64,000 bases of DNA, from assembly GCA_013180625.2 (NCBI GenBank), contig SNVD02014002.1, positions 1-64,000 of the forward strand, read 5' to 3'. Shown piece after piece: positions 1-36,999 of this stretch (its first letter is position 1; every line of letters starts with the position of its first letter). Source of the DNA: Boswellia sacra (lineage: Eukaryota > Streptophyta > Magnoliopsida > Sapindales > Burseraceae). Both the position numbers and the translations under genes were made by a program. The notes under the pieces were generated by a model. That model ran no database searches. It was not told the DNA's origin and worked only from the letters and a program-made list of their open reading frames with translations.

Positions 1-1037
1 GCAAGTAACTGTAGCAGAGTATTTAAACACATTTTAGGGTTTTATTTTCATAACTTGAAGAGGGGAGAACGTGGTGGAGGCTGAAGCTCTGGAATTCTTT
101 CATCTCTTTGAGTTCTTGAAGGAGAAAGGAAGCTTGGAAAGAGGAAGAACTACAATCCAAAGAGAATTACATCAAATTTGCTAATTTTTTCCCTTCCCTT
201 TCATTTTCTGGAATGTCTCCATGTTGTATTGTATTTACCACGTTCTTAAACATGTGTAGCTGAATCTGAATTGGTTGAGGGTGATTTCAAAGCCCCTGAT
301 ATGTTTTTGTAAGTTGATTGTGCAAGAAGTTGTTATCCAATTCTCTAATTGAAGTTGCTTGTATTTTCCCATGTCTAATGCTTATGCTTGCTTGCTGGAT
401 TGTATTTGGGTGGCCAACTGAATATAATCTGGATATTGTCTATTGCTAGACTAGAAATCTTGATCCGTAATTGTCTTGAATTTCTAATCATTAGTAGCAA
501 ATTGTGATCAGAGATTGCAATTGGAGAATATAACCTAAGTTAAATAATCCGAGCTTGTGTGTTTATTGCTTAGATCAACCTATCTTTCTTATCATAATGC
601 CTCCATTGAATTAAACTCAGAGAGCTTGTTCTAGGTTGTTTAATGGATAGAGATTAAATAAAGAGCTTGTTTTATTTAACAACCCAGTAAGGAAAGATTG
701 GGGTAATAGAGCTTGTTATTATCTACGGTTGATAACTTCAATGCTGTAATTAGATGACAATTCTACAATTAATTCGCAAATCCATATCTTGTGGTAGAGA
801 AGGATCCCTTAACCAGTTTTCTCTCATTGATTTTTCATTCAAATTTACTTTCTGTTTTGTTATTCTTTACTTGCATTCTTATTTCATTTAGTAAGCATTC
901 AACAAAAATCCCCCCTGTTTAGTTTATTGTTGCTGGAAATAACAAATTCAATTAGAATCAATCCTCGTGGGCACGATATCTTACTTATCACTTTATTACT
1001 TGTGCGACTAGTATACTTGCTAGTTTCGAACGCATCA
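1..1037 (+). repeat. 5' LTR of Athila-1 (partial)
   Basis: This aligns end to end with 10451-11488 of the 3' LTR; roughly the first 370 bases lie outside the window. It ends in the shared terminus CGCATCA directly before the primer binding site. The same LTR family recurs as solo LTRs at 22977-24390 and, inverted, at 46264-47693. Confidence 0.95.
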
Positions 1038-1043
1038 AGTTTT

Positions 1044-1061
1044 TGGCGCCGTTGCCGGGGA
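1044..1061 (+). promoter_or_regulatory. Primer binding site of Athila-1
   Basis: TGGCGCCGTTGCCGGGGA lies seven bases after the LTR end. This is the Athila-type site, usually described as complementary to tRNA-Asp (from memory of the family). Confidence 0.88.
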
Positions 1062-1858: not shown

Positions 1859-3280
1859 ATGGGCAGTTCCAAAACCTACAAAGAATCACAAACTGATGAC
1901 GGAGATGAACACCATACTTCCATCCTGAACAACACATCATCTTCTAATGTAGATCTTAAACTCAATTCCTTCTTTGTTACTACTCCTCCACTTTTTCCTA
2001 GTAGATTTGCAAAATCGAAAAAGGAGGAACAAGACCAAGAAATCCTGGAAACTTCTCACAAAATCGAGGTAAATATACCACTTCTGGATGCTATCGAGCA
2101 AGTACCTCATTATACAAAATGTCTCAAGGAGTTATGCCCCAGCAAAGGAAAGTTAAAAAGAAATGAGAAAGTAAGTGTGGGGGAAGATGTTTCAGCTGTA
2201 TTGCAAAGGAAAATTCCTCCAAGATGCAAAGATCCAGGTACGTTCACCATGCCATGCACCATTGGTAAAACCAAGTTTGAAAGAGTTATGTTAGATTTAG
2301 AAGCATCTATTAAAATCATGCCATATTCTATTTATGCTTCTTTAAATCTTGGACCTCTTGCGAAAACTGGTATTACCCTGTCTCTTATACACATCTAGAT
2401 GTGTATAAGAGACAGTCCCAAGGGAGTTGTGGAAGATGTGCTTGTGCAGGTAAATCAATTGTTTTTTCCAGCAGACTTCTATGTTCTGGAAATGGAGGAT
2501 GAGACATCTCCCAATCCAACACCGATTCTTTTGGGGAGGCCATTCTTAAAAACTGCCCGAACGAAGATTGATGTTCATGATGGCACTCTCACCATGGAGT
2601 TTGATGGCGATGTGATTCGTTTCAATATTTTTGAGGCAATGAGGTACCCTAGTGACTTGCATTCTGTTTTTGCAGTTGATGTTATTGATTCTTTGGCACA
2701 ACAACTTTTTGAGTTAACTCGCAAGGATGCATTGGAAGTAGCCATTAGTGAGCACATAGGGGCAGAAAATTTCAGAGAATCGAGGAAGTTGATACAAGTG
2801 TCTAAAGACGTGGAGGAAGCTGTGGCAAGCTTGGATGAGACTATAGCTATCACCACAAACAGGTATGATGTTTCGTACATTGAATTGCCTTTATCTAATG
2901 AGAAACTTTTACCTTCCGTGATTAAAGCACCTGCCTTGGAGCTTAAGCCTCTTCCAGATCATTTGAAGCATGTATTCCTAGGAGAGAAAGATACTTTGCC
3001 AGTCATAATAGCAAAGGGTCTTGCACCATTACAAGAAGAGAAACTCATCCGAGTGCTCCGAGATCACAAAACGGCTCTTGGGTGGACAGTCGCTGACATC
3101 AAAGGTATTAGTCCAGCCGTATGCATGCACCGCATCTTGTTTGAAGAGGGATCCAAGCCCACTAGAGAAGCACAGCGGAGGTTGAATCCTCCCATGATGG
3201 AAGTTGTCAAGAAAGAAATCCTTAAATTGTTAGCTGTGGGTGTGATTTATCCAATTTCCCTGGAAACAGCAAGTGGGTGA
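1859..3280 (+). pseudogene. Athila-1 pol, protease and N-terminal RT region
   Basis: The protease neighbourhood reads LLDAIEQVPHYTKCLKELC, then the active-site segment MLDLEASIKIMPYSIY, where the usual D(T/L)GAS has become DLEAS, so the protease is probably dead. The frame is broken at 2378-2415 by two mosaic-end adapters and continues as PKGVVEDVLVQV, LLGRPFLKTARTKIDVHDG (end of the aspartic protease domain), then the RT entry motif REAQRRLNPPMMEVVKKEI. About ten codons (an LADR-type segment, present in Athila-2 near 29244) are missing at the adapter. Apart from the adapter stop the segment is open to 3280, where a frameshift occurs in the WVSPVQ-type motif. Confidence 0.88.
2378..2415. other. 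Inverted pair of Tn5/Nextera mosaic ends (sequencing artefact)
   Basis: Bases 2378-2396 are CTGTCTCTTATACACATCT and 2397-2415 are its exact reverse complement, AGATGTGTATAAGAGACAG. These are the 19-bp hyperactive Tn5 mosaic ends used in Nextera library adapters. Translation gives the tell-tale SLIHI, stop, MCIRDS peptides. Compared with Athila-2, 39 bases stand where about 30 native bases are expected, so genuine sequence has been replaced. This is a library or assembly chimera, not biology. Confidence 0.97.
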
Positions 3281-4219
3281 GTCCAGTCCCAAGTGTCTCG
3301 AATGAATCTGGTGTTAAACGGTGGTTAAGAATGACAATAATGAAGCTAGTTCCCACTCGTACCAAACCGGTTGGCGAGTTTGTATTGATTATCACAGCTC
3401 CAATTCTGCAACTCGTCAAATCACTTTCCACTTTGCCATTATTGATCAAATCTGGAGAGATTAGCAGTCCATTCTCATTATTGTTTCTTGATGCTATTCA
3501 GAATATAATCCAGATTGTCATGCCCCTGAGGATCAGAGAAAACTACATTCACATGCCTATTTGGTACATTTGCTTATCGACGCATGCCATTCAGTCTTTG
3601 CAATGCCCCTCCCAATTTCCAAAGGTGTATGGTAAGTATTTTCTCTAATTATGTCGAGAACATCATTGAGGTATTTATAGATAACTTTAGTGTGTTTGGT
3701 GATTCTTTTGATAAATGCCTTGACAACCTTACACTTATATTTCAAAGATGTATAGAAACTAACCTTGTTTCTGAATTGGGAGAAATGTCACTTATGGTAG
3801 ATCAGGGTGTATAGGTTTGGACAATGTTTTTCCTGCTAAGGGTATAGAGGTTGATAATCCAAGATAGATCTTAATATGTTCCTTACCACCTCCCACCAAG
3901 TGTGCGGGATTGACGTTTCGTTTCTTGGTCATGCATGTTTTTTATCTATATTCATCAAGATTTCTCGAAGATTAAGCATTTGCCCCTATGCAGATTATTA
4001 CGAATGACGTGGCCTTTGACTTTGATGAGAATGCAAAGAGGCATTTGAGAAACTGAATGAAACTCTTGACGTTGGCTCCGTAATCCATCTCCGAATTGGA
4101 ATCATCCCTTCGAGATCATGTCGCCGATTGCAAGTGACTACGCTGTGGGTGCCGTTTTGGGTCAACGAATTGTGCAAAATTCCACATGCCATTTGATTAC
4201 TATGCCTCTCGGACTTTAA
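3281..4219 (+). pseudogene. Athila-1 reverse transcriptase remnant
   Basis: Several frames together show RT blocks: MPFSLCNAPPNFQRCMVSIF (3584 onward) and IEVFIDNFSVFGDSFDKCLDNL. The catalytic FxDD is FIDN, so a catalytic aspartate is lost. The stretch 3281-3580 and the region 3815-4219 contain multiple frameshifts and stops; the RT/RNase H connection is recognisable only in pieces. The enzyme would normally copy the element RNA into DNA inside virus-like particles; this copy cannot. Confidence 0.85.
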
Positions 4220-5848
4220 ATGAATGCCTCACTTAATTATTCTACCACTGAGAAAGAGCTCCTGGCGGTTATTTTTGCTTTAGAAAAATTTCGTTCTTAT
4301 TTGATTGGTACTAAAATAACCGTTTATTCTGATCATGCAGCTTTGAGGTACTTGCTCACAAAGAAAGATGCTAAACCAAGGCTTATCAGGTGGATACTCC
4401 TTTTACAGGAACTTGACTTGGAGATCAATGATAAGAAGGGAAGTGAAAACTTAGTTGCAGACCATCTCAGTCGCATTGTCCATGATAAGAATGCACTGCC
4501 ATTACAAGAAAGTTTTCCAGATGAACAATTATTGTCTCTAAATGTAGTAGCCCCTTGGTATGCAGATATTGTTAACTACTTATTTACCAAAAAGCTACCA
4601 CATGACTTGACTCGAGCTCAAAGAGACAAGATCAAGAACATTGCCAAGTTTTACATATGGGATGATCCGTACTTATGGAAGCATTGTTCTGACCAAGTGA
4701 TAAGAAGGTGCATTTCTGAATCTGAATTTAATTCAATTTTAACCTTCTGTCATTCTTATTCATGTGGAGGTCATTTCGGACCAAAAAGAACAGCCCTTAA
4801 AGTTCTTGATTGTGGATTCTACTGGCCATCATTTTTCAAAGATGCATATCTGTTCTGCAAAGCTTGTGACCATTGTCAAAGGACAGGTAATTTAAGTGCC
4901 AAAAATCAAATGCCACAAACCCCTATACTTATTGTCGAGATTTTTGATGTGTGGGATATTGATTTCATGGGTCCTTTTCCTTCATCTTTTGGTAATGTTT
5001 ACATTATACTTGCTGTGGATTATGTTTCTAAGTGGGTGGAAGCAAAAGCTACAAGAACTAATGATTCTAAAGTTGTTGTAGATTTTGTGAAATCTAATAT
5101 TTTTGCGAGATTTGGAACACCAAGATCCATGATTAGCGATAGAGGGACACACTTCTGTAATAGATCATTTGAAGCCTTGCTCAAGAAATACAACATCACT
5201 CACAAGTTGTCTACTGCATATCATCCACAAACTAGTGGTCAAGTTGAGTTTTCACATCGAGAGTCAGTCCATTCTCGAGAAGACGTGAATCCGAACCGAA
5301 AAGTTGGAGCCTACGATTGAATGATTCATTTGGGCATACCGGACTGCTTACAAGACACCTATTGGTATGTCTTCGCACATGTTAGTCTATGGTAAGCCAT
5401 GTCACCTTCCGGTAGAGCTCGAACACAAAGCATGGTGGGCAGTAAAGCTTTGTAACATGGAGATGGATGCTGCTGGAGAACAAAGGAAGCTTCAACTGCA
5501 ATAATTGGAAGAACTTAGAAATGATGCCTATGAGAATTCCAGAATTTACAAGGAGAGAACTAAGGCATTTCATGATAAAATGATCTCCAGGAAGAATTTT
5601 GAAGTGGGACAGAAGTTCTTTTATTTCATTCTCACCTCAAGTTATTTTCAGGTAAATTACGATCTCGATGGGTTGGACCTTTTGTTATTACTAATGTTTT
5701 TCCCCATGGTTCAGTGGAAATCAAGAGCTTAAAAACGGATAAAGTATTCAAGGTGAATGGGCACAGGTTGAAGCCTTACTATGATAATTCAGTGATGCAG
5801 GACATCGATGAGGTACCTCTCTACGAGCCAACTTATCTTGATGGGTGA
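4220..5848 (+). pseudogene. Athila-1 RNase H and integrase
   Basis: The first 366 codons are open. RNase H motifs are visible ([37 protein letters not shown]), then the integrase zinc region (H-x3-H-type start HSYSCGGHF, then [11 protein letters not shown]), then the DDE core: [20 protein letters not shown], and the glutamate in HPQTSGQVE. After 5260 the frame slips; the remainder ([46 protein letters not shown], then [13 protein letters not shown]) is spread over frames and reaches a stop at 5846-5848. This C-terminal block is the usual Athila GPY/F-like tail. It is the best preserved part of this pol. Confidence 0.9.
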
Positions 5849-6293
5849 GGACAGATAACGTCAGGCTGAGGACGTTAAACCAAGCGCTTATTGGGAGGCA
5901 ACCCAATGTTTTGAAATATAATAAAAAGAGACAAAGAAAAGAAGGTAGTATTGATCAATTTTTGTGTTTCGAGGAGATTCCTCTCATGGGCTATTATAAT
6001 TGATCAGGTTTTATCTCTCTTTGCCATTTGTCTTATTTGCTTTGTTGTTTGTTTTTGACTTTCATTTGCTCTTGTGTTTTTATTTCTTTTATGTGTCTCT
6101 ATTTTCTTTTCTTTTCTTTTCTTTTCTTGTGTTTACTTTGATTATTCCGTGCTTCGAGTTCAGTTGTGCAACAGCTTGAGGAAACATTCAAACGGGAGTT
6201 GAAGCCATTGTTCGAAGGTTTGAAACGTGCATATCTGGGAGAAGAACAAACTCAATCGCATTATCGGTAATATCTCTCCTTTTCTTCTCCTCA
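5849..6293 (+). other. Spacer between pol and the extra ORFs, with conserved hairpin
   Basis: No ORF. It contains the Athila-type conserved block with palindrome AAGCGCTT (5882-5889) followed by ATTGGG-AGGCAA-CCCAAT (5890-5907), and a (TTTTC)n microsatellite near 6100-6127. The hairpin block is common downstream of Athila pol genes (from memory); its role, perhaps in subgenomic RNA or splicing, is inference. I do not see the block in Athila-2. Confidence 0.6.
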
Positions 6294-6847
6294 ATGGATG
6301 CTGATATCTTTCTATCGAACCTTCGTAAATATTTCCCTTCACTTCCTCAAAATGCTGTGTTTAAAATTTATAAAGTACGGATGACTAGACTTTGGGCGTT
6401 GACGCTCCTAAATGTGCCTGCGGATATCCGATGGCTTATCGAACCAAGGTGAGATTGTCCGGTGAGCCGGACATTAATCTCGCAAAATACATGCCTGGTC
6501 TAGGAAAGAGCTACTACGCCAAGAGGCGAAGAGCGAAAAGGTTACAAGTATGTTTTAAATGTGCTAGATGGAATTGTAACCAGACTTGTCGTTCATTAGG
6601 TTTTGCGTCCAGGAATAGAGAAGACAAACTTTCATTTATTAAGAATGTTTTGAGTAATGAGTCGCTGGATAATGTTTTGTTAACTCTCGAGTCACATTCT
6701 TGTGGACTTGTTCAGCGTGAATTGCTTAATCTATAGACACAATTTCGTGATGAATTGCAGTGTTATAGTCTAGGGAATCTGACTAAAAACGACCCTGTTT
6801 GCCAGTTTATAAGAAAACTGGATGGGAAGCAAATCCTCGACTCATAG
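6294..6847 (+). pseudogene. Extra ORF 1 of Athila-1: basic zinc-finger protein resembling carlavirus cysteine-rich protein
   Basis: An ATG at 6294 opens a frame with KYFPSLPQN; a one-base loss near 6445 moves the reading to the frame that carries a basic patch (YAKRRRAKRLQ) and a four-cysteine cluster C-x2-C-x4-C-x3-C, then CRSLGFASRNREDKL. A TAG at 6734 stands where Athila-2 has tryptophan, after which homology continues to a shared stop at 6845. Total about 184 codons. The arrangement of an arginine-rich motif directly before a compact cysteine finger resembles the nucleic-acid-binding cysteine-rich proteins of carlaviruses; that is a by-eye similarity, not a search result. The homologue in Athila-2 spans 32782-33329. 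Inferred role: nucleic-acid binding, possibly nuclear. Confidence 0.7.
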
Positions 6848-7457
6848 AAGGCGTTTCAGCCGTTACTGGACGTAAAACCAGAGAAGATGTGAGCCACAAT
6901 CACAACTACTTGTATATTTGAATGTGTGTTGTTGTTGTAGAATTTTTTTTCTTGTTTCGTTTGATCTGATTATCAATATTGTTTTTGTGTTGTTGTTGTT
7001 TGTTGATTTTGTTTGTTTTAATTTCAAGTTTTTCTTTTTGACAAACCATATGACTACCCTATGGCATAAGTACACGTGGGAGACAAGTGTGGAGGTTTTG
7101 TCAACCTCCACCGAAAGTGTATCTCTATTTTATATGCTTCACGTGGGAGACAAGTGTGGGGGTTTTGTCAACCCCCGCCGAAAGTGTATCTCCATTTTCC
7201 ATGCTTCACGTGGGAGACAAGTGTGTAGGTTTTGTCAACCCTCGCCGAAAGCATATCTCATTTTTTCAAATCTTGGGGCGATAAATCTGCATCGAGCAAC
7301 CCCCACCGAAAGTGTGTCCCCATGTGTCAAAATTTGAGAGTTTTTATGGGTGTATATATACATTCTGCATATTTTCATATGTCATTCCATAACCTGTCTT
7401 GCAATTGAAAAGCATAATATCTAACGTGTCTTACACCAGATTAGAGCACTTGTAGAA
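6848..7457 (+). other. Spacer upstream of the LOG-type gene
   Basis: The first 200 bases are T-rich with no coding signal. It then holds the 67-bp tandem repeats listed separately and a short AT-rich leader (TATATATAC near 7349) before the LOG start at 7458. The sequence 6887-6913, GATGTGAGCC followed by CAATCACAACTACTTGTATAT, has a close match in Athila-2 at 33370-33400, so the cassette shares non-coding sequence as well. Confidence 0.6.
7073..7321 (+). repeat. 67-bp tandem repeat with G-box and hairpin
   Basis: CACGTGGGAGACAAGTGTG recurs at 7073, 7140 and 7207, an exact 67-bp period; a fourth, truncated unit ends near 7321. Each unit has a palindromic G-box core CACGTG and a hairpin: GGAGGTT-ttgtc-AACCTCC in unit 1 and GGGGGTT-ttgtc-AACCCCC in unit 2. 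The paired change keeps the stem. Unit 3 has lost part of the stem. Each unit then carries CCGAAAG(T/C). Confidence 0.9.
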
Positions 7458-8107
7458 ATGGAGAAAACACCAATTCGGCGATTCCGCAATATATGCGTAT
7501 TTTGCGGATCGCCATTTGGTAAAGATGGAGAGTTTACCACAGCAGCTCTTGATCTTGGTAGGACATTAGCTGCGAGGGGTATTAATTTGATTTATGGAGG
7601 GGGTAGTCTTGGGTTACTGGGGTGTGTGTCAACAGCTGCATCCCTAGGAGGGAGCAAAGTTCTCGGCATTATCCCTAAACCATTAGCTGTACGAGATATC
7701 GTAGGCAACACCATCGGGGAAGAGTTACAGGTCTCTAGTATGCATGAGCGTATTGCACATATGGTTGTTAAGTCCGATGCATTTATAGCTTTACCGGGTG
7801 GTTATGGTACCTTAGAGGAGATATTTCAAATCACCTCTTGGGCACAGCTAAACATCCATCGGAAACCCATTGGTTTGTTAAATGTTAATAATTTTTTTGA
7901 TGGTTTGTTGTCCTTTCTTGATCAAGCTGTAGAAAAAATTTCATCTCACCGTCAGCAAGGCAAATGCTGGTTACAGCTTCAACTGCAGGAGAGTTAATTG
8001 ACAAACTACAAGAATTCGTCTATTCACCTGATCCAACAATGGCTCGTATAAATTGGTTTGGAGAAGGCAACAAAAGGCGTCAACTGGATTTAACCCTCCA
8101 TCTGTAA
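7458..8107 (+). pseudogene. LOG-type cytokinin riboside 5'-monophosphate phosphoribohydrolase carried by Athila-1 (one frameshift)
   Basis: LOG enzymes release active cytokinin bases from their nucleotides in the cytosol. Seen here: RNICVFCGS at residues 10-18, the nucleotide-binding GGGSLGLLG near 48, SSMHERIAHM with the conserved arginine near 95, the signature LPGGYGTLEE near 113 with the catalytic glutamate, then WAQLNIHRKPIGLLNV. Start chosen at 7458 because the homologue at 33659 starts at the same residue. The frame is open to about 7945, where one base is missing in an A-run (GTAGAAAAAATTTC); homology continues in the next frame to a stop at 8105, about 216 residues in all, the usual LOG length. 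Plant LOG genes have introns (family knowledge); this copy has none. Downstream of the zinc-finger ORF, same strand. A sequencing error in the A-run could make it intact. Confidence 0.9.
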
Positions 8108-10063: not shown

Positions 10064-10078
10064 AAGTGTGGGGGAATT
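10064..10078 (+). promoter_or_regulatory. Polypurine tract of Athila-1
   Basis: AAGTGTGGGGGAATT sits directly before the 3' LTR start TGATAGG. It is the expected primer for plus-strand synthesis. Confidence 0.85.
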
Positions 10079-11488
10079 TGATAGGTGTCTATTTATGTAT
10101 TACTTTTATATCAATTCGTCCATGTTTCTTTGCTATATTCCTTCGTATTTTTATGTTTTTGTGTGGTTTTGATGTTTGTAGGAGTTTTGGAGCAACTTGC
10201 ACAAAAATGGAGTACAACCCTTCATTTTCACCTCTGCTAGTCAACCATCTTCTCGGATTTAATTGTATTGATATACAATGAACCCGATGACATATCATAT
10301 ACCGTTGAAAAGCTCTCGAAGTATACTTTTTGGAGAAATTTACGGTTTATGAATCCATTCAGTGTACCAAAGTTGTAATCAAAACAGTGTGAGAAGTATA
10401 GAAATGTAATTCCACACATCACTGTAGCATGTATAATACGGGACATTGTAGCACGTTACTGTAGCAGAGTATTTAAACACATTTAGGGTTTTATTTCATA
10501 ACTTGAAGAGGGGAGAACGTGGTAGAGGCTGCTGCTCTGGAATTCTTTCATCTCTTGGAGTTCTTGAAGGAGAAAGGAAGCTTGGAAAGAGGAATAATTA
10601 CAATCCAAAGAGAATTACATCAAATTTGCTAAGTTTTTCCCTTCCCTTTCATTTTCTGGAATGTCTCCATGTTGTATTGTATTTACCACGTTCTTAAACA
10701 TGTGTAACTGAATCTGAATTGGTTGAGGGTGATTTCAACGCCCCTGATATGGTTTTTGTAAGTTGATTGTGTAAGGAATTGTTATCCAATTCTCTAATTG
10801 AAGTTGCTTGTATTTTCCCATGTTTAATGCTTATGATTGCTTGCTGGATTGTATTTGTGTGGCCAACTGAATATAATCTGGATATTGTCTATTGCTAGAC
10901 TAGAAATCTTGATCCGTAATTGTCTTGAATTTCTAATCATTAGTAGCAAAATTATGTTCAGAGATTACAATTGGAGAATATAACCTAAGTTAAATAATCC
11001 GAGCTTGTGTGTTTATTGCTTAGATCAACCTATCTTTCTTATCATAATGCATCCATTGAATTAAACTCAGAGAGCTTGTTCTAGGTTGTTTAATGGATCG
11101 AGATTAAATAAAGAGCTTGTTTTATTTAACAACAAAGTAAGGAAAGATTGGGATAACAGAGCTTGTTGTTATCTACGGTTGATAATTTCAATGGTGTACT
11201 TGGATGACAATTCTATGATTAATTAGCAAATCCATATCTTGTGGCAGAGAAGGATCCCTTAACCAGGTTTCTCTCATTGAGTTTTCACTTAAATTAACTT
11301 TCTATTTTGTTATTCTTTACTTGCTTTCTTATTTCATTTAGTAAATCATTCAACAAAAATCCCCCCTGTTTAGTTTATTGTTGCTGAAAATAACAAATTC
11401 AATTAGAATCAATCCTCGTGGGAACGATATCTTACTTATCACTTTATTACTTGTGCGACTAGTATACTTGCTAGTTTCGAACGCATCA
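10079..11488 (+). repeat. 3' LTR of Athila-1
   Basis: 1410 bp, from TGATAGGTGTC to CGAACGCATCA. It matches the 5' LTR at 1-1037 closely and two solo LTRs elsewhere in the window. Promoter-like repeats are listed separately. Confidence 0.95.
10421..10477 (+). promoter_or_regulatory. LTR core promoter candidate: triple TGTAGCA repeat and TATTTAAA
   Basis: ACTGTAGCA, ATTGTAGCA and ACTGTAGCA occur within 45 bases, followed directly by TATTTAAA at 10470-10477. The same arrangement is kept in the solo LTR at about 23320-23375 and, inverted, near 47300. A promoter role is inferred from spacing and conservation. Confidence 0.5.
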
Positions 11489-11980
11489 AAAAACCGAACA
11501 ATAAAAGATAGTCTTGTGAAATTTTTAGAACCTGGATATAAAGGGCACTTTGCCTCTTGAAGCAACCCAAAGAACTTCTAAATCTCATTAGTTGGACCCT
11601 CAACATTTTCATCATCCAACGGGAGGTTAAGATCTACATTAGAATCCGTAATTGGAATACCCATTGCATCATGCACCATCCCAACCATATCATAATTGTC
11701 AATTGAATCATAGCTAGCCTCGACTTCTTGGTTTGTGTGGGAAGATGTGTAGGGCTCCCCATACTTTGTCCATTTTTAATAATTTGACAAGAAGCCATTC
11801 ACTATGATATGTTTTCTTATCATCTCCATCTCATAAAAAAACTTACTTTTGGATCCTTTACATGGACAATATATTCTTGTATCACCAATTACATTCGCAA
11901 ATGCAAAATCCAAGAATCCATAAGCCTTATCAATGTAGCTTGGTTAGCCTATTCGGCATATCAATCTAGCTCTTGTCCAT
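11489..11980 (-). pseudogene. CACTA TNP2-type transposase, N-terminal part
   Basis: Read on the minus strand from an ATG at 11980: MDKS then a TAG where the family has tryptophan, IDMPNRLTK, a two-base loss, then FLDFAFANVIGDTRIYCPCKG and HIIVNGFLSNY. This is the transposase-associated domain that begins TNP2 proteins. Further on: KYGEPYTSS, VGMVHDAMGIP and EAKCPLYPGSKNFTRLSFIV, the start of the TNP2 transposase proper. The gene stops at 11489 where the Athila-1 3' LTR begins; the rest should lie left of Athila-1, outside the window. Several stops make it a pseudogene. The protein would normally bind CACTA ends and cut the element out. Confidence 0.85.
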
Positions 11981-12627
11981 GGATGCATTCAAAAACTCAG
12001 TACAAAAAGATAAATTTAACTCAATAACTTAATATAACAAATGATTACATATAAGCAATATGAATCCTATCTCCTCCACTTTTCTTTAAAAGGTAGGTGG
12101 TCCTATCCCATTTAAGAATGCATAAGTTTGTATGATAATTAGTACTCAAGTTTTGTTCCACTTCAATGGAAATTTCAACAACATCTCCCCTTATTTCACT
12201 AAGTACACGAATAGATTTATGGATGTTATAAACACCACATTCATCTAATAAGTACCCAGAGAACAAAAGGAGTGCCACTGAAATCCTTTAAGTGAAACAA
12301 ACCCGGGGTACTATACTAATTTACCATACAAACTTATACTTAAATTGTCCAACCGGACAATTCAAGAATTATTATTAGACATATGATCGTCATTATCATC
12401 CTGTGATTAGGAAGAGGATATAAAAACATATTTCTATTAATAATTAATCTTAAACGGGTCTAAGGTTAAATGCATAAATTAATATAATGATTAACATATC
12501 TAGTTAAATCTTGGATACCATTGTACTTAGTATCTAGGATTTAAAACCTATATTATCCTAAAACTCATTACTTAATGACTTCTTAATCTAAACAAAAGGA
12601 TAAACTATAAGAAAGGATTCTAGGGTG
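11981..12627. other. No gene recognised upstream of the transposase
   Basis: A 77-codon minus-strand frame at 12045-12278 has no motif I know and is probably chance. The remainder is AT-rich with stops in all frames. Confidence 0.5.
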
Positions 12628-12914
12628 AACTGATTATTTGATTTAGGGTATGGGGTGTTTAGGTGAATTGATTTAGATTATAGGCTGTTTAGGTAAATTG
12701 ATTTAGGTTATAGGGTGTTTAAGGTGAACTTATTTATTATAGGGTGTTTAAGGTGAACTCATTTAGGTTACGCGGTGTTTAAGGAATTGATTTAGGTTAT
12801 AGGGGTGTTTAGGGAAATTGATTTAGGTTATGGGATGTTTAGGGAATTGATTTGGTTATGGGGTGTTCAAGGTTAATTGATTTAGATTATAGGGTGTTTA
12901 GGTGAATTGATTTT
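12628..12914. repeat. 30-bp minisatellite, about nine units
   Basis: The unit is roughly TTGATTTAGGTTATAGGGTG plus TTTAGGTGAA. Units recur about every 30 bases across the stretch with small length changes. It could be the subterminal repeat array of the CACTA element, whose transposase lies to its left and whose right end is at 18412. Confidence 0.9.
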
Positions 12915-14313
12915 ATGTATTTTTTTTAAGTTTATACTATATTAATTAAGTTTATTCTATATTAATTAACATATGGAAAATACAACTAGCAATGACATAT
13001 TAAAATAAAGCAAGCTTAAAATAAAACAAGAACAAATCAGCGTTGAAAGCTTTAAGGCAAACATAATAATAAGCTACTTTACACATATTTGCATAAAGAT
13101 AATTAATAATGGATCATTGATCATCATCAACATGTATTTGTATATAATATCAATTCACATACAATTTACATGAAACATGGAACATCTTATTGACATACAA
13201 TTTACATAAACATGAAATATGCATACAATATTCATACATTCGACATCTTATTAGCATACAATTTACAATTTGCAAGATGTCAAATCATGAGATTGCCCAT
13301 GAAAAATGTTAAATAAAAGAATAAAAGATGGTTTTAAGCACTAAAGTACAAACCTCAAAGAAGAAAGAATTCCAACATGACAAATCCTGAAACAAATTAT
13401 GGATAAAGCCTTCTAAAAACCTTCTAAACAGATTGTAGTACCTTTTGTGCAATCAGAATCAAAGAACTCAATAGCCTATGATACAGATCCTGGATATCAG
13501 CAGTTGTAATTAATAGATATCCTAGATATGATGTATAGTTTATATATATATATAAACTTGATATATAATCTAAACTTGTTCGGTTATATTATATATCAAG
13601 TGAAAAGACTTGATATATAATATAATCGAACAAAAATTGTACCCATTATGCGAGTCATGATCTTCTAAAAAAAAAAAAAAAAAGAAACACTTGCTATCAA
13701 AAGTAAATAAACTTCCAAATTATCAAGTGGAAAGAGTGGCAGCTATACTTTCCAGTCAAAATGCAAGACAGATGGTTATCAAGTGAAATTGAATGAAAAA
13801 ATTGAGAATTTGATGGAACTAAATTTATTATGAATGATAAGTATACTATATTTAGAAGAAATTAAGAACATTTCCTTTTAAATAAAATATAAATTTGACA
13901 TCCAGTATTAGATCCTTGATTGACATTCATTGTCTTTATTTCTTTCAATATTTAAAAGGACATTGCTTTTAAACAAAAGATAAAATTGTTTTGGAAACCA
14001 AAAAGATATCTTCAAGTATTATCTAATCTAATACTTCGCAATATCCTTCCACACAAGCATGTGAATTTGTGCCAATGAGATTACGTCCAAGGAATGCTTA
14101 ATGCAGGATACTAGAAAGTTTCTAATCAAACTAAGAGTTGGGTAAAACTTCTTCAAATAGAGCTTATAAAGTAGAACTTATGGAAATAAAACTTATAACA
14201 AAAAATCGATGGTTGTTTGTAATGTCAATTAAAAGACCTCTTATAAATTAGTAGACTATTTGGTTATGTAACTTTGAAAGTGCTTTCTAGATATAAATTA
14301 CCAAAAAACTCTT
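12915..14313. other. AT-rich, no gene seen
   Basis: It contains small inverted repeats such as TTGATATATAATCTAA/TTGATATATAATATAA near 13556 and 13609, and an A-run near 13670. No coding signal. Confidence 0.6.
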
Positions 14314-18672: not shown

Positions 18673-18993
18673 TGTTAGCTATTGTGCTTAGGACTGCTAC
18701 CACGTTTGCAGAATGTTTTCTTTTTGTTATGTTTTAAATATTTCAAAGTTTGTTTCCTAGTTTCCAGGAGGCTGTTAATGTTCTGATTTTATGTATTTAA
18801 TCGTGGTCTAATTATAGGACATGATATTAGTGGTTAGTTATTTTCAAGTCTTTAAATGTAAGTACTAAATTCAATGAAATTAGATCTCTCTCTTCTTCGA
18901 CACAATCATCTCTAGTGTTCTTTAATGAAAAACTTTTATTCCTTCCTTTAAAGTCGTCTCTATTTTTCTATTGCAACTTTATAAATAACAATA
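18673..18993 (+). repeat. 5' LTR of copia-A
   Basis: 321 bp, from TGTTAGCTATTG to ATAACAATA. The 3' copy ends in ATAACAACA, so the final CA has decayed here. This uninterrupted copy shows what the 3' LTR looked like before the solo LTR landed in it. Confidence 0.92.
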
Positions 18994-22883: not shown

Positions 22884-24619
22884 TGTTAGCTATTGTGCTT
22901 AGGACTGCTGCCACATTTGCAGAATGTTTTCTTTTTGTTCTGTTTTTAATATTTCAAAGTTTGATTCCTAGTTTCCTGATAGGTGTCTATTTATGTATTA
23001 CTTTTATATCAATTCGTCCATGTTTCTTTGCTATATTCCTTGGTATTTTTATGTTTTTGTGTGGTTTTGATGTTTGTAGGAGTTTTGGAGCAACTTGCAC
23101 AAAAATGGAGTAAAACCCTTCATTTTCACCTCTGCTAGTCAGTGATCTTCTCGGATTTAATTGTATTGATATACAATGAACCCGATGACATGTTATATAC
23201 CGTTGGAAAGCTCTCGAAGTCTATTTTCTGGAGAAATTTACGGTTTATAAATCCATTCAGTGTACCAAAAGTTGTAATCAAAACAGTGTGAGATGTATAG
23301 AAATATAATTCCACAAGTCACTGTAGCATGTATAATACGGGGCACTGTAGCAAGTCACTGTAGCAGAGTATTTAAACACATTTTAGGGTTTTATTTTCAT
23401 AACTTGAAGAGGGGAGAACGTGGAGGAGGCTGCATCTTTGGATTTCTCTCATCTCTTGGAGTTCTTGAAGGAGATTGAAGGCTTGGAAAGAGGAAGAACT
23501 ACAAATCCTAAGAGATTTCATCAAATTTGCTAAGTTTTCCCTTTCCCTTTCATTTTCTGGAATGTCTCCATATTGTATTGTATTTGTATTCTATCTGAAT
23601 ATGTGTAACTAAATCTGAATTGGTTGAGGGTGATTTCAAAGCCCTTGATATGGTTTTTATGAATTGATTGTGCAAGGAATTGTTATCCAATTCTCTAATT
23701 GAAGTTGCTTGTATTTTCCCATGTTTAATGCTTATGATTGCTTGCTGGATTGTATTTGGGTGGCCAACTGAATATAATCTGGATATTGTCTATTGCTAGA
23801 CTAGAAATCTTGATCCGTAATTGTCTTGAATTTCTAATCATTAGTAGCAAAATTGTGATCAGAGATTGCAATTGGAGAATACAACCTAAGTTAAATAATC
23901 CGAGCTTGTGTGTTTATTGCTTAGATCAACCTATCTTTCTTATCGTAATGCATCCATTGAATTAAATTTAAAGAGCTTGTTCTAGGTTGTTTAATGGATA
24001 GAGATTAAATAAAGAGCCTGTTTTATTTAACAACAAAGTAAGGAAAGATTGGGATAACAGAGCTTGTTGTTATCTACGGTTGATAACTTCAATGCTGTAA
24101 TTGGATGACAATTCTACAATTAATTCGCAAATCCATATCTTGTGGTAGAGAATGATCCCTTAACCAGCTTTCTCCCATTGATTTTTCATTCAAATTTTCT
24201 TTCTGTTTTGTTATTCTTTACTTGCATTCTTATTTCATTTAGTAAAGCATTCAACAAAAATCCCCCCATGTTTAGTTTATTGTTGCTGGAAATAACAAAT
24301 TCAATTAGAATCAATCCTCGTGGGAACGATATCTTACTTATCACTTTATTACTTGTGCGACTAGTATACTTGCTAGTTTCTAACGCATCATTTCCAGAAG
24401 GCTATTAATGTTCTGTTTTTATGTATTTAATCATGGCCTAATTGTAAGACATGATCTTAGTGGTTAGTTATTTTTAAGTCCTTAAATGTAAGTACTGAAT
24501 TCAAAGAGTTAGATCTCTCTCTTCTTTGACACAATCTCCAATGTTCTTTATTTAAAAACTTTTATTCCTTCCTTCAAAGTCGTCTTTGTTTTTCTATTGT
24601 AACTTTACAAATAACAACA
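22884..24619 (+). repeat. 3' LTR of copia-A, split by a solo LTR
   Basis: The parts are 22884-22976 and 24396-24619 (plus one copy of TTTCC). They join to match 18673-18993. Confidence 0.92.
22977..24390 (+). mobile_element. Solo LTR of the Athila-1 family
   Basis: 1414 bp from TGATAGGTGTC to TAACGCATCA, matching 10079-11488 over its whole length. The 5-bp duplication TTTCC is exact at 22972-22976 and 24391-24395, so it arose by a normal insertion followed by LTR-LTR recombination. It is the youngest layer in this nest. Confidence 0.95.
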
Positions 24620-25877: not shown

Positions 25878-27260
25878 TGATGAACACTTAAATATATATG
25901 TTTAATAAGAGTTTAGGTCATTATATTGCATTAATAGTGTCATTAAATTCCTCAACTTAAGCATATTTATAGTCTTTACATCCTTTGAATTAACTTTCCC
26001 TTAATTTCAGTTTTGATGTAGGTTTGGTTAAAATGGGCATAACTTTCTGTTTATAGATCAGAATGGTGCAAATGTTAATTTTTTAGAAAGCTGATTAAAT
26101 TATCTACAAGATTGTATTTCACAAGCATCATCAAATTTGGGCTCTTATTGGACCAAAATGTGATTGAAGTGAACCCATCTGTAGTTTCAGCCAAGCCTGA
26201 CCATGCCTCAGTATTTTGACCATATCTCTCAAAATACGTATCTAAATCATATGAATCAAGATGTTTTAGAAATGTGAGAGAAATATCTATGACTTTCATG
26301 AAGACATGTATTAAAATTTTCAATAATTCAATATCAAAATCGGTGGTCAAAGTCGGTTCACCTTATTACCCCAATTGTCAAAGTTGGTGCATCTAATATT
26401 TGATAATTATTCATTTATAATTTGACAAGTTTACCTCTGAATGTATCTATAAATAGAGATGCCTTGTGACCCATTAGGACATCTTGGCCTTGGCTGGGAT
26501 CTCTTGTTATTGTGATTTTCTCTCTTGTGTTTTAATATTATTAATGAATTTCCTTTTCCTTACAATTTGTTTTCTTTCATTTATAATGTCTTTCTAATTT
26601 CTCTCTTGCTAAGGTGAACGGGTGAAACCTTTGGTATGAGAATAAGGATTTTTTTAATCCTTTGATATGTGCTTAATAATCATAATCTTGTGTTGTTTAT
26701 TTTATATGATTTATATTTATTTTCTTAATCAATCTTGAAACCACTCGTAAAGTGGAGGTCTTGATCCATTGTCGACAATCCTTGGCACATCAAATGCTTG
26801 GATCCTTTCTAGATATCGTATGGTTCTTCCTTACCAACACGAATATAGTTAGGCACCTTGATTTGTTGTAGACATATGGTGATTAGCACATTGGATGCTT
26901 GAACCCATTTACAACAAGTGGTATAAATATTGGTAACGAAACAAATATAATTCATATAACTAAAATGGGCTACTCATCCTTATTTGATATATCAAAAGTG
27001 GATCCCCTAACCTTAGCTTTCATTATTATTGTGTTAATTTCTCTTGTATTTTAATTTTTCTCATTTATTGTTTATGAACTTGTTCTTTACTTATATTTGT
27101 TGATATTATCTTGCCATTTTATTGAATTATCCATATCATATTTGCTTACTTTATAGTTTGTAGCGCTAAAACTCCTTCCTCGTGGATCAACCCCAGTCTT
27201 ACTGGGTTTATTACTTCAACACTCCTATACCTAGGAGACAATCCTTTTTGGGAGATGTCA
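25878..27260 (+). repeat. 5' LTR of Athila-2
   Basis: 1383 bp from TGATGAACACTTAAAT to GGGAGATGTCA. A good TATA box TATAAATA lies at 26448-26455, repeated at 36211-36218 in the 3' LTR. Confidence 0.94.
26448..26455 (+). promoter_or_regulatory. TATA box in Athila-2 LTR
   Basis: TATAAATA within CTATAAATAGAGATGCC, the classic plant core-promoter form. Transcription would start about 30 bases downstream (inference). Confidence 0.7.
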
Positions 27261-27266
27261 AGTTTT

Positions 27267-27284
27267 TGGCGCTATTACCGGGGA
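27267..27284 (+). promoter_or_regulatory. Primer binding site of Athila-2
   Basis: TGGCGCTATTACCGGGGA, seven bases after the LTR. It differs from the Athila-1 site at three positions, so the site is decayed or uses another tRNA. Confidence 0.75.
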
Positions 27285-27462
27285 AGGTAAACATTGGCGT
27301 GCAAAATTGTGAGTATTCTCTTTTCTTATTTTAGATCTTAATTTTTTTCTTTGTCGTGTGTTCATCTTTTCTTCTCTTTTCTTTTCTCTTTCTTGCATGA
27401 AAATTTGGTCATGAACATCTAGTGGTAGACTTGTTAGAAAAACATCATCTTCCTTAGAAAAC

Positions 27463-30218: not shown

Positions 30219-32651
30219 ATGCTGTCACAAAAAAAGATCATTTTCCCTTACCTTTCCTTTATCAAATTCTAGAAAGAGTAGCAGGGTACCCTTACTACTG
30301 CTTTCTTGATGGATATTCAGGCTATTATCAAATTCCTATTGCATTTGAAGACCAAGAAAAGACCACATTCACATGCCCCTTCGGCACTTTTGCATTTAGG
30401 AGAATGCCTTTTGGACTTTGTAATGCTCCAGCTACTTTTCAAAGATGCATGTTAAGCATTTTTAGTGACATGATTGAGCATTGTTTAGAAGTTTTCATGG
30501 ATGATTTAACTATCTTTGGAAACTCTTTTGATAATTGTCTTGAAAACTTGAAAAAAGTCATAAAAAGGTGTGAAGAAAAAGGTCTTATTTTGAATTAGAA
30601 AAAATGTCATTATATGGTCACTTCAAGAATTGTCTTAGGTCATGTGGTATCTTCTAAGGGAATTGAAGTGGACAAAGTAAAAGTGGAATTAATTTCCCAT
30701 TTGCCTCCACTAAAAATAGTCAAAGAGGTTCGTTCATTCTTAGGACATGCTGGATTTTATAGAAGGTTCATAAGAAATTTCAGTGCTATATCTAAACCTC
30801 TTTGTAACCCTTAATAAAAAACACCTCTTTTGAATAGACTCAAGAATGTCAAAATGCCTTTGATAAGTTAATTGGACTTTTAACAACTGCTCCAATTATG
30901 CAATCTCCCGATTGGTCCTTGCCTTTTGAGTTGATGTGTGATGCAAGTGATTATGCTATTGGTGTTGTCTTAGGACAAAGAAAAGAAGGCAAGCCTTATT
31001 TGATATACTTATGCAAGTAGGACTTTAAATGATGCACAAATGAATTACACAACAACTAAAAAAGAACTACTTGCAGTAGTATTTGCATTGGATAAATTTT
31101 GATCTTATTTAATTGGTTCTCCAATAATTGTTTACACTAACCATGCAGCTGTGAGATATTTAATGTCTAAACAGGATGCAAAATCTAGATTGATACGGTG
31201 GATCTTATTGTTCCAAGAATTCAACATCATAATAAAGGATAAGAAAGGAGCCGAAAATGTCGTTGTAGACCATTTGTCAAGATTAACAATAGAGACATTA
31301 ATTAAAACTTCACCTATCAATGATTCTTTTCCTGATGAATTTTTATTTTTCGTTGCTGCTGTACCTTGGTTTGTTAACATTGTAAATTTTCTTGCAACAG
31401 GAAAAATGTCACCTCATTGGAATGCTCAAGACAAAAGAAAGTTTTTGATTGCGGTGAAAAATTTTTATTAGGATGACTCCTATCTGTTCAAATATTGTCT
31501 TGATCAAATCATTAGAAGATGCATACCCGACAATGAGGTAAGTAGTGTCATTAATTTTTATCATTCTGAAGCATGTGGAGGACATTTTTCATCTAAAAAA
31601 ACAGCTGCTAAAATCTTGCAATGTGGATTTTATTGGCCCACCTTATTTAAGGATGCACATATATTTTGCAAAACTTGTGAAAATTGTCAAAAATTGGGAT
31701 CCATTTCAAAACGAAACATGATGCCTTTGAAGCCCATTCTTGTTGTTGAAATCTTTGACTGTTGGGGTATTGATTTTATGGGACATTTTCCACCATCATT
31801 TAGTTTTGTGTACATTCTTGTTGCAGTAGACTTTGTTTCAAAATGGTTCGAGGCAATTCCATGTCGAAACAATGATCACAAAACAGTTATCAAATTCTTG
31901 AAAGAGAATATCTTCTGTAGATTTGGAATTCCTCGAGCCATTATTAGTGATGGGGGTACACATTTTTGTAACAAACCATTTGAAACTTTAATGAAGAAAT
32001 ATGGAATAACCCATAAAATTTCTACACCTTATCACCCGCAAACAAGTGGACAAGTTGAATTAGCTAATAGGGAGATAAAACAGATCTTAGAAAAAACGGT
32101 TAACCCAAACCGTAAAGATTGGTCTTTAAGACTTAATGATGCACTTTGGGCTTACCGAACTGCTTTTCAAAACATCATTGGGAATGTCTCCTTATAGATT
32201 AGTTTATGGAAAACCTTGTCACTTACCTGTGGAAATTGAGCATAAAGCTTATTAGGCCATTAAAACATTTAACACAAACTTGAATGATGCTTGCAAGTTA
32301 TGTAAACTCCAACTGAGTGAACTTGAAGAAATCAGGAATGAGGCTTATGATAATTCTAAAATCTACAAAGAAAAAATGAAGGTTTTTCATGACAAATTCA
32401 TTGTTAAAAAATTTTTTGAACCTTCAAAAAAAGTTATTTTGTATGATTTAATATTGCACTTGTTTCCTGGTAAACTTCGGTCTCGTTGGACTGGACCTTT
32501 CATTGTTAAAAATGTTTTCCCTTATGGAGTAGTTGAAATTGAAAACCCAAAGAATGTTAATGTGTTTAAAGTTAATAGACAACGGTTAAAACCATTCTTT
32601 GAAAATTTTGACCAAAATGAAGAGTCCATTGCTTTAATCGATCCTTTTTAA
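30219..32651 (+). pseudogene. Athila-2 pol: RT, RNase H, integrase
   Basis: RT: MPFGLCNAPATFQRCMLSIF and the catalytic FMDDLTIFG, both aspartates present; LGHAGFYRRFI. RNase H: KKELLAVVFALDKF, then [20 protein letters not shown] and VVDHLSRL. Integrase: [46 protein letters not shown] and HPQTSGQVE (DDE complete). The C-terminal block LRSRWTGPFIVKNVFPYGVV ends FKVNRQRLKPFFENF with a stop at 32649. About eight stops or frame changes separate the pieces. Confidence 0.92.
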
Positions 32652-32781
32652 GGATTGATTTTTCCCGGTCAAGTGGCGGATATGGTACTCCGTGACTTTT
32701 AAAGTCGATTTTTTAGTTCCCGAAAAACTGTTGCTCACCTTGTATTCATTTTCTTTTCTTCTTTCTCATTTTTTTTTTCAC

Positions 32782-33329
32782 ATGGATACCATTCTCTCAA
32801 AACTGTACAAACATTTTCCCTCTTTTCCTCAAAATGATTTGCTTAAAATTTACAAAGCTCGCACAACAAGACTAAGGACGTTGATGTGCAATAGCATTCT
32901 TGCTGATTTAAGATGGTTAATTGAAGCCAAGGTTCGATTTTCTTATGAGTTTTCAGATAATCTTGTTTCTCATATGCCAGGTTTGGAAAAAAGCTCTTAC
33001 GCCAAAAAGCGAAGAGCGAAAAGGTTACAAGTTTGTCACAGATGTGCAAGATGGACTTGTAACCAGCATTGCCGCTCCTTGGGATATTTGTCTAATAATC
33101 GAGAGGATAAACTATAGTTTATCAAGAATAGACTGAGTAGGGAGTCTTTGGATGAATCCGAGTGACTCTTGAGACGCATTCTTGTGAACTTGTGCAGCGT
33201 GAAATTTTGAAATTGTGGACACAATTCCGAGATGAGCAGGAATGTTATAGTCTTGAGAATCTGACTCAAAACGACCCTATTTGCCAATTTGTAAGAAAAC
33301 TGGATGGGAAGCATATCCCCAACTCATAG
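32782..33329 (+). pseudogene. Extra ORF 1 of Athila-2: basic zinc-finger protein resembling carlavirus cysteine-rich protein
   Basis: An ATG at 32782 begins MDTILSKLYKHFPSFPQN, and the frame stays open through RWLIEAKVRFSYEF, the basic patch AKKRRAKRLQ and the cluster C-x2-C-x4-C-x3-C (in CHRCARWTCNQHC), to a TAG at 33115. Homology to the Athila-1 copy continues after it, with one further indel near 33165, to a shared stop at 33327. The first 111 codons are unbroken, so this copy gives the reference N-terminus. The upstream frame is open to 32692, but ATG 32782 matches the Athila-1 start. The basic motif placed just before a compact finger suggests nucleic-acid binding; kinship with carlavirus proteins is a by-eye idea. 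Confidence 0.75.
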
Positions 33330-33658: not shown

Positions 33659-34309
33659 ATGGAGGAAACCTCAAAACGTTGAATCCAAAAGATATGTATA
33701 TTCTGTGGATCTCGACCTAAAAAAAGTGAAGAGTTTGTAGCAGTAGCAAATTATTTTGGTAGGCTATTAGCCGAAAGAACGATTCATGTGGTTTATAGAG
33801 GAGGTAGCCTCGGGTTAATAGGTTGTGTGTTAACAGCTGCACTCGTAGGGGGCAGTCAAGTTTTAGATATTATTCCTAAAGCTTTGGCTGTAGAAAGCAT
33901 CGTTGGAAAAACGGTTATGAAGGAGTTACAGGTCTCCTCTATGCATGAACGCATGGCATATATGCTTATCAATTCAGATGCCTTTATTGCTTTACAAGGT
34001 GGCTTTGGTACTCTCAAAGGAATTTTTCAAATTGCCTCTTGAGCCCAACTAAATCTCTATAAAAAACCGATAGGTTTGTTGAATGTTAAAAATTTCTTTG
34101 ATCCTTTGATAAGTTTTGTTGATACAGCTGTAGAACATAATTTTATCCCTTATTCGGTGCGACAGATCCTTGTTTCTGCCACTTTTGTTAGTAAGTTATT
34201 TGACAAACTACAAGCAATTGAGTATGAACCTGACCCAGCTATAACTCAAATTAATTGGTCAGGGGGACAAAACAAAAAGTGCAAATTGGATCTGAATCTT
34301 TGTTTGTAA
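33659..34309 (+). pseudogene. LOG-type phosphoribohydrolase carried by Athila-2 (two in-frame TGA stops, no indel)
   Basis: 651 bases, 216 codons plus stop, in one uninterrupted register. KICIFCGSRP, RGGSLGLIGCV, SSMHERMAYM, SDAFIALQGGFGTLKG, AQLNLYKKPIGLLNVKNFFD and NWSGGQNKK align without gaps to the Athila-1 copy; about 130 of 216 positions are identical by hand count. The signature PGGYGTLEE is QGGFGTLKG, so the catalytic glutamate and the P-loop-like proline are lost: this copy would be inactive even without its stops. The stops are at codon 8 (33680, probably CGA to TGA) and codon 128 (34040, TGG to TGA), both explained by cytosine-methylation decay. Same strand and position as in Athila-1. 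Confidence 0.9.
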
Positions 34310-35639: not shown

Positions 35640-36999
35640 TGATAAACACTTAAATATATATATTTAATAAGAGTTTAATTCATCATATTACATTAATAGT
35701 GTCATTAAATTCCTCAACTTAAGTATATTTGTAGTCTTTACATCTTTTAAATTAACTTTTCCTTAATTTCGATTTTGATGTAGATTTGGTTAAATGGTCA
35801 TAACTTTCTGTTTATAAATCAGAATGGTGCAAATCCTAATGTTTTGAAAAGCTGATTAAATTATCTACAAGATTGTATTTCACAAGCATCATCAAATTCG
35901 GGCTCTTAGTGAACCAAAAATGGGCTTGAGATGAACCCATCTGTAGTTTCAGCCTAGCCTGTCTATGCCTCAGTATTTTGACCATATCTCTCAAAATACG
36001 TATTCAAATCATATGAATCAAGATGTTCTAGAAAGCTGAGAGAAATATCTATGACTTTCATGAAGACATGTAATTAAAATTCCCAATAATTCAATGTCAA
36101 AATCAGTGGTCAAATTTAGTTCACCTAATTATCCCAATTGTCAAAGTTGGTGCATCTAATATTTGACAATTATTCCTTTATAATTTGACAAGTTTACCCC
36201 TAAATGTATCTATAAATAGAGATGCCTTGTGACCCATTAGGGCATCTTGGCCTTGGTTGGGATCTCTTGTTATTGTGATTTTCTCTCTTGTGTTTTAATG
36301 TTATTAATGAATTTCCTTTTCCTTACAACTTGTTTTCTTTCATTTATAATATCTTTCTAATTTCTCTCTTGCTAAGGTGAAAGGGTGAAACCTTTGATAT
36401 GAGAATAAAGATTTTTTTAATCCTTTGATATGTGCTTAATAATCATATTCTTGTGTTGTTTATTTTATATGATTTATATTTATTTTCTTAATCAATCTTG
36501 ACACCACTCGTAAAGTGGAGGTCTTGATTCAAATGCTTGGATCCTTTATAGATATCGTATGGTTCTTCCTTACTGACACGAATCTAGATAGAAACCTTGA
36601 TTTATTGTAGACATATGGTGATTGGCACATTGAATGCTTGAACCCATTTACAGCAAGTGGTATAAATATTGATAACGAAACAAATATAATTCATATAACT
36701 AAAATGGGCTACTCATCCTTATTTGATATATCAAAAGTGGATCCCCTAACCTTAGCTTTCATTATTATTGTGTTAATTTCTCTTGTATTTTAATTTTTCT
36801 CATTTATTATTTATGAACTTGTTCTTTACTTATATTTGTTGATATTATCTTGCCATCTCTTTGAATCATCCATATCATATTTGCTTACTTTATAATTTGT
36901 AGCGCTAAAACTCCTTCCTCGTGGATCGACCCTGGTCTCACCAGGTTTATTACTTCGACACTCCTATACTTAGGAGACAATCCTTTTTCGGAGGTGCCA
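35640..36999 (+). repeat. 3' LTR of Athila-2
   Basis: 1360 bp from TGATAAACACTTAAAT to GGAGGTGCCA; matches 25878-27260 over its length with scattered substitutions and a deletion near 36526 (the text CATTGTCGACAATCC is missing). Confidence 0.94.

Follow-up and report, generated by a model that had tools for sequence, protein, structure and literature searches.

Sequence analysis suggests that a LONELY GUY (LOG) gene of Boswellia sacra is accessory cargo of an Athila-type LTR retrotransposon. The gene stands beside a virus-like zinc-finger gene, appears to be under purifying selection, and likely encodes an active cytokinin-releasing enzyme whose C-terminal tail likely recruits TOPLESS. We lean towards this reading as a whole. 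The sequence studied is a 64,000-nucleotide window of contig SNVD02014002.1, forward strand, in which two elements carry the LOG gene (Table 1). The zinc-finger gene is referred to as NABP-like, after the nucleic-acid-binding proteins of carlaviruses.

Table 1. Features of the two elements in the window, and genome copies that share one deletion
Feature	Position or copies	Strand	Basis and remarks
Element 1, 5' LTR	1..1037	+	95.2% match to 10451-11489; truncated at its start by the window edge
Element 1, primer binding site TGGCGCCGTTGCCGGGGA	1044..1061	+	Read from sequence
Element 1, pol, RNase H and integrase open stretch	4220..5320	+	PF17917, PF00665 and PF17921 above cut-off
Element 1, NABP-like gene (carlavirus nucleic-acid-binding type zinc finger)	6294..6847	+	Pfam; tblastn with 180-186-residue relatives; frameshift and stop
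Element 1, conserved non-coding block directly 3' of the NABP stop	6845..6920	+	Three small predicted hairpins
Element 1, LOG gene	7458..8107	+	PF03641, solved relative, tblastn; one frameshift
Element 1, LDLTLHL tail of LOG (LxLxL, EAR-type)	8084..8104	+	Sequence
Element 1, polypurine tract GTGTGGGGGAATT	10066..10078	+	Read from sequence
Element 1, 3' LTR	10079..11488	+	Window self-comparison; end read from sequence
Element 2, whole	25878-36999
Element 2, 5' LTR	25878..27260	+	91.6% match to 35637-36999; ends read from sequence
Element 2, integrase open stretch	31616..32197	+	PF00665, 67.7 bits
Element 2, NABP-like gene	32782..33329	+	PF01623, 27.4 bits (cut-off 20.9); tblastn; stop and frameshift
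Element 2, LOG gene	33659..34309	+	Two in-frame stops; C-terminal LDLNLCL tail kept
Element 2, 3' LTR	35640..36999	+	Window self-comparison; ends read from sequence
Copies with the shared RT-integrase deletion	L038, L041, L043-L047, L049, L050, L052, L054

Element 1 has the features of the Athila lineage, namely two LTRs, a primer binding site after the 5' LTR, a polypurine tract and the order RNase H-integrase. The primer binding site is presumably of the tRNA-Asp type, and we take the integrase and primer-site features as the grounds for the name Athila. A tRNA scan detected no tRNA. An aRH domain between RNase H and integrase is given as a mark of the Tat lineage in the available part of a survey (PMC6317226). 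A Pfam scan of the open stretch 4220-5317 alone found no further RNase H match, and Pfam may contain no aRH model. Between the NABP-like and LOG genes of element 1, three 67-base tandem copies are located at 7073-7273, each beginning with CACGTG. Window self-comparison found no counterpart of them in element 2.

The region 7458-7994 scores 115 bits with Pfam PF03641 (cut-off 27), and TIGR00730 gives 155 bits on LOG (cut-off 96). The NCBIfam equivalog NF058542 gives 107 bits, under its cut-off of 300. The best solved relative is Arabidopsis 2a33 (E 1.5e-56). The translation keeps YGGGSLGLLG, MHER and LPGGYGTLEE, and both PGGxGTxxE and the catalytic arginine are present. A single frame break is found near 7936-7940, after which another frame runs to the TAA at 8105-8107. 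The positions of the LTRs, pol and LOG indicate that the gene is inside element 1, in the sense orientation. These results agree with an earlier note on this DNA, which had placed the gene on the plus strand between pol and the 3' LTR, with the signature LPGGYGTLEE, the GGGSLGLLG loop and MHER intact and one break in the frame.

The LOG gene of element 1 reads through without an intron. Plant LOG genes contain several introns, so the intron-free reading fits capture via an RNA. In both window LOG genes an AG is located 18 bases before the ATG (7438-7457 and 33639-33658), in a shared context with TTAGAG next. Judged from this context, it is a possible 3' splice site.

The gene order pol, NABP, LOG, 3' LTR is common to elements 1 and 2. 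Their LTRs show no match in the window self-comparison, and their LOG proteins are 60% identical. The NABP-like gene of element 2 scores 20.3 bits with PF05515, under the cut-off of 23. Its LOG has lost PGGxGTxxE and the active site is damaged. Both window LOG copies are broken, and stop-free LOG frames are present elsewhere in the genome. No target-site duplication was found for element 2 (ACGTA before, GTGTG after).

Other repeats are present in the window. Two solo LTRs of the element 1 family, at 22977-24390 (plus strand) and 46264-47693 (minus strand), are each bounded by an exact 5-base target duplication (TTTCC and GTCAT). The second solo LTR lies within a minus-strand copia element, with the RT stretch on one side of it and the integrase stretch on the other; LTR-like repeats of that copia element are at 43999-44390 and 51276-51687. 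LTR-like repeats at 18673-18991 and 22884-24617 mark a probable copia-type element that is split by the first solo LTR and has a GAG-pre-integrase at 20278-20736. Tandem repeats of about 30 bases occupy 12608-12943. An inverted repeat pair (39599-40230 and 56470-57103, 72% identity) and a direct repeat pair (59743-60072 and 62297-62626, 96% identity) were also observed.

LOG copies are abundant in the genome. The assembly searched, to which the window belongs, contains 638.6 million bases in 7,431 contigs. With the LOG domain, the best 150 of 10,198 first-look candidates were scored; all 150 were over the cut-off and none had a stop inside the match, which gives at least 150 loci. With Arabidopsis LOG3, 150 of 13,083 candidates were scored; all covered most of the protein in a single frame at 51-57% identity, and a few of them contain stops. 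Twenty of the 150 copies were fetched, taken from all parts of the ranking and for the most part with long flanking sequence on their contigs. NABP is located upstream of LOG in 18 of them; the two without a NABP match have 0.8 kb and, in L035, 1.8 kb of upstream sequence. LTR-like direct repeats with 92-98% identity surround LOG in nine stretches. Fifteen copies have an uninterrupted 216-residue LOG frame that terminates in LxLxL, and the rest have shorter or altered frames.

Eleven of the 20 fetched copies share one deletion, corresponding to element 1 from about 3202 to 5857, which removes RT, RNase H and integrase (Table 1). They retain the gag and protease parts, NABP and LOG, and nine of the 11 have an intact 216-residue LOG. 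The shared deletion with retained cargo indicates that a subfamily lacking its own polymerase was copied while carrying both cargo genes. Six other copies continue through the pol part. Three belong to neither class: L035 and L053, both truncated, and L036, which is of the element 2 type and lost RT to integrase by a different route.

The gene upstream of LOG encodes a protein similar to the cysteine-rich, nucleic-acid-binding proteins of carlaviruses. In element 1, its open piece at 6392-6733 scores 35.6 bits with PF05515 (cut-off 23) and 25.4 bits with PF01623 (cut-off 20.9), and like the viral proteins it has a basic stretch followed by a four-cysteine motif. A protein search found 165 relatives among 166 candidates, and 120 of the 165 were used for counting. 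A length of 182 residues is the most frequent among these (24 of 120), and 106 of 120 have the cysteine spacing CX2CX4CX3C. The spacing is longer in carlaviruses. Among aligned members, at an E of 0.01, PF01623 matched 22 of 22 and PF05515 matched 21 of 22. Unlike the carlavirus proteins, these are encoded by a retrotransposon. A structure model was too poor for use (pLDDT 54.5, pTM 0.30). The available text of PMC12172455 presents such carlavirus proteins as silencing suppressors, and p12 of chrysanthemum virus B as a transcription factor that causes hyperplasia. By analogy, the NABP-like protein is a possible silencing suppressor.

The non-coding block after the NABP stop is conserved at 33327-33403 in element 2, and at 2345-2420 in a third sequence, L026. 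Elements 1 and 2 are 83% identical in it over 102 aligned bases. Two pairs in the predicted hairpins have changes on both sides. An Rfam search of 6800-7500 gave no match at E up to 1. L026 is a 3,330-base plant-type retrotransposon fragment filed in a Candidatus Nomurabacteria assembly, probably as contamination. Its integrase is 82% identical to that of element 2 over 189 residues and is followed by an open NABP gene, which scores 34.1 bits with PF05515 and 20.4 bits with PF01623, just under 20.9. This Athila-type fragment contains no LOG in the 983 bases after NABP. In viral contigs, no relatives were found with a single LOG query, an alignment of NABP or a pattern of the block. A LOG alignment matched 25 viral-contig loci at 25-45% identity, which were taken as microbial or phage LOGs.

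Comparison of the two window elements gave dN/dS values of 0.265 for LOG (bootstrap 0.16-0.41, 212 codons) and 0.183 for NABP (bootstrap 0.10-0.30, 178 codons). The LTR distances (K2P 0.045 and 0.069 for the two elements) are small compared to the differences in LOG and NABP, indicating that most of the divergence predates the insertions. Among genome copies, LOG has a median dN/dS of 0.16 (104 pairs of 15 copies, range 0 to 1.23), a value lowered by the choice of copies by LOG score. NABP, which was not used for choosing, has a pooled dN/dS of 0.235 (36 pairs of 9 copies). Setting the LOG dN of 0.017 against the K of 0.054 in the non-coding stretch after the gene gives a less extreme ratio, 0.31 (78 pairs, 13 copies). 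These substitution ratios show purifying selection on both LOG and NABP.

The synonymous changes are unevenly distributed. In the 13 element-1-type copies among L038-L054, the mean dS of LOG is 0.127, over twice the 0.054 of the adjoining non-coding sequence, and in an overlapping set the mean synonymous divergence of NABP is 0.040. One possible cause of the excess in LOG is its exchange between lineages. Between the window elements, pS is lower in the cargo genes (0.58) than in the integrase (0.83), an order reversed in a fraction of 0.0004 of 5,000 bootstraps. This hints that the cargo moved between element lineages as a module.

A search for relatives of the LOG protein scored 8,000 candidates and gave 7,818 matches, of which the 120 listed are used below. 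PGGxGTxxE is present in 103 of these 120, and the exact motif is absent in 17. Reevesia pubescens contributes 18 of the 120, with 13 different chromosome prefixes, a scatter expected of a mobile element. Among contigs longer than 2,000 bases, three lengths are common to the LOG and NABP lists (30 versus 40; chance mean 0.15, P 0.00025). The structure model of the relative P0002 has a pLDDT of 87 and matches 2a33 best. Ten-residue means are 86-98 over residues 11 to 190 and 53-67 at the end, as expected for an exposed flexible end. The element LOG thus resembles the plant LOG phosphoribohydrolases (Arabidopsis At2g37210 and At5g11950; PDB 2a33 and 1ydh) in its fold, in PGGxGTxxE and in the arginine signature. 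Unlike them, it is intron-free and has a basic cluster and LxLxL at its very C-terminus.

A tree was built from 97 of the 120 relatives (at least 195 residues), 39 of 120 listed host LOGs and both window copies. The 97 relatives and the window copies are located on one side of a branch with 100/100 support, separated from the 39 host LOGs. The earlier note had looked to such a phylogeny for evidence. The separation was obtained, and by itself it weighs little, because similarity was used to pick the groups, the host subfamilies are too sparsely represented and the tree is rooted at its midpoint. The window copies are not sisters, and support there is weak.

The C-terminal tail distinguishes the element LOGs from the host LOGs sampled. 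Among the listed relatives, 91 have 205 or more residues, and LxLxL is found within the last 15 residues of 69 of these. It is found in the last 40 residues of none of 120 host LOGs; going by their names, these are LOG1/3/8-type proteins, and a host subfamily carrying such a tail may have been missed. A basic cluster, K[KR]x[KR], is present in the last 25 residues of 74 of the 91 relatives versus one of the 120 host LOGs. Among representatives at 80% identity, 27 of 35 end exactly in LxLxL, compared to a mean of 1.2 and a maximum of 6 for tails shuffled 2000 times. In these 27 the leucines are invariant, as the set was chosen so, the positions between them vary, and the basic cluster precedes them. 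The tail leucine codons of the two window elements have five base differences, all silent (simulated P 0.031). The strict tail is absent in 22 of the 91 relatives, and 11 of these (eight Xanthoceras rows, P0020, P0030 and P0031) branch first in the midpoint-rooted tree. P0022 has no LxLxL and ends in DLNLTP, the other EAR class.

The EAR consensus is given as LxLxL and DLNx(x)P in the available text of PMC9956375. According to the part of PMC7446885 at hand, the EAR motif of the effector HaRxL21 binds TOPLESS and its leucines are required, and TOPLESS binding was absent in ten other LxLxL effectors of one pathogen. The tail of the element LOG is therefore a good prediction rather than a result, and it likely recruits TOPLESS. 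As in HaRxL21 (PMC7446885), the C-terminal LxLxL would be able to do so; unlike HaRxL21, a pathogen effector with shown binding, the transposon LOG is predicted to bind.

Could the element simply carry a plain LOG enzyme that raises free cytokinin, with a tail that is incidental or serves stability or localization only? The catalytic signature, kept in 103 of the 120 relatives, and the modeled fold, which matches the Arabidopsis LOGs, would suit such an enzyme. However, all 27 tailed representatives keep the leucines of the tail, whereas the intervening residues differ among them. In these leucine codons the window elements differ by five silent changes and zero amino-acid changes, and one relative has the other EAR class instead. 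We consider a plain enzyme rather unlikely. The conservation of the tail would also suit a protein used for its tail. The LOG core would then serve as a scaffold or as a decoy, tying up TOPLESS or poisoning the LOG dimers of the host, with a secondary role for catalysis. The exact PGGxGTxxE is missing in 17 of the 120 relatives and the window copies are just 60% identical in protein, which is consistent with this use. A scaffold would not need the catalytic motif, however, and its retention in 103 of 120 makes the proposal improbable.

Two further alternatives concern the origin of the gene. Plant LTR elements are known to take up host transcripts (PMC7264820 and PMC13317346, as far as their available text goes), and both window copies are broken, as might be seen if a host LOG transcript had been picked up once and were decaying as neutral baggage, copied only with the element. 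Against this, dN/dS for LOG has an upper bootstrap bound of 0.41, LOG dN is below the non-coding divergence in genome copies, LOG is open in a subfamily that lost RT-integrase, and the tail is conserved. Passive capture is barely credible in our view. Alternatively, each window element may have taken a different host LOG, with the low dN/dS reflecting selection on the host genes. In the tree, the two window copies do not group as sisters, at the weak support mentioned. However, they occupy the same position after the same NABP gene, share the block after NABP and a tail absent from 120 host LOGs, and fall on one side of the branch versus the hosts, and dN/dS is low within one element family too. 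Independent captures are very unlikely. The second element, the genome copies and the dN/dS values led us to reject a one-off insertion or neutral baggage.

The proposal of the earlier note that LOG is cargo of the element, and not a chance insertion, is upheld by the second element, the at least 150 stop-free matches, the same neighbor in 18 of 20 copies and the purifying selection. The matches are not confined to this locus, and nine of the 20 fetched copies are flanked by LTR-like repeats. The virus-like NABP neighbor and the LxLxL tail had been missed.

Steinbauerova et al. are said to have described, in 2011, two Athila-like elements similar to LOGL4. A YgdH/LOG domain is reported in LTR-retrotransposon consensuses of Citrus sinensis, C. 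clementina and Populus trichocarpa (Alvarado-Marchena et al., 2022, PMC9289625), in a text that cites Steinbauerova et al. 2011 for LOG in LTR elements. LOG-bearing elements as such are thus already known from the available part of that paper, which contradicts the earlier note's belief that no plant LTR retrotransposon with LOG cargo had been described. As in Boswellia sacra, the LOG domain is inside plant Gypsy-type elements there. The NABP neighbor, the LxLxL tail and a selection test on LOG, in contrast, are unmentioned in the available part of PMC9289625. This paper was the only one found for LONELY GUY together with Athila, and LONELY GUY appeared in none of the matches listed from the gene-capture literature. 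The NABP-LOG pairing and the LxLxL tail were not found in the available part of PMC9289625 or among the papers listed on LOG or NABP-type genes in retrotransposons, and no title among these fitted NABP-type genes in retrotransposons. In the accessible text of PMC3136472, a betaflexivirus replicase-like sequence is described near a retrotransposon-like one in cucumber, without NABP.

Orchid Gypsy elements with an AlkB m6A demethylase, as presented in the same part of PMC9289625, are comparable in that an extra enzyme gene has a counterpart in plant RNA viruses. They differ in the enzyme, in belonging to the Tat/Ogre lineage and in having activity shown in vitro; the elements here are of Athila type, with an activity that is predicted. 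For extra genes located between pol and the 3' LTR, function is described as rather speculative in the available text of PMC6317226. That survey, as given there, took extra frames of at least 250 codons only, so genes of about 182 and 216 codons are below its limit.

We infer that the element likely uses the LOG-NABP pair to manipulate the host cell, to its own benefit. The LOG enzyme would release free cytokinin, which would push the cell towards a dividing, meristem-like state, and new element copies could thereby reach the germ line. The basic cluster and the LxLxL tail may bring the LOG protein, and thereby TOPLESS, to nuclear targets, or may withdraw TOPLESS from them. The NABP-like protein may aid by silencing suppression or by acting on transcription, as do carlavirus proteins of its Pfam families. 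More tentatively, and with a good deal of doubt, the pair may form a two-gene effector module as in pathogens. It would consist of a cytokinin-releasing enzyme with a nuclear, TOPLESS-recruiting tail gained after capture, and a zinc-finger protein, in common with plant RNA viruses, that suppresses silencing or acts as a transcription factor. Such a module would move between element lineages, outlive the loss of the polymerase and reprogram the host towards division and lowered silencing.

The two extra genes between pol and the 3' LTR have recognizable, testable activities, and both show selection. LOG in addition carries a short motif with a known binding partner. Should the tail bind TOPLESS, this would be a case of a transposon employing a device familiar from pathogen effectors, and the Boswellia sacra genome offers very many copies for testing tail binding.
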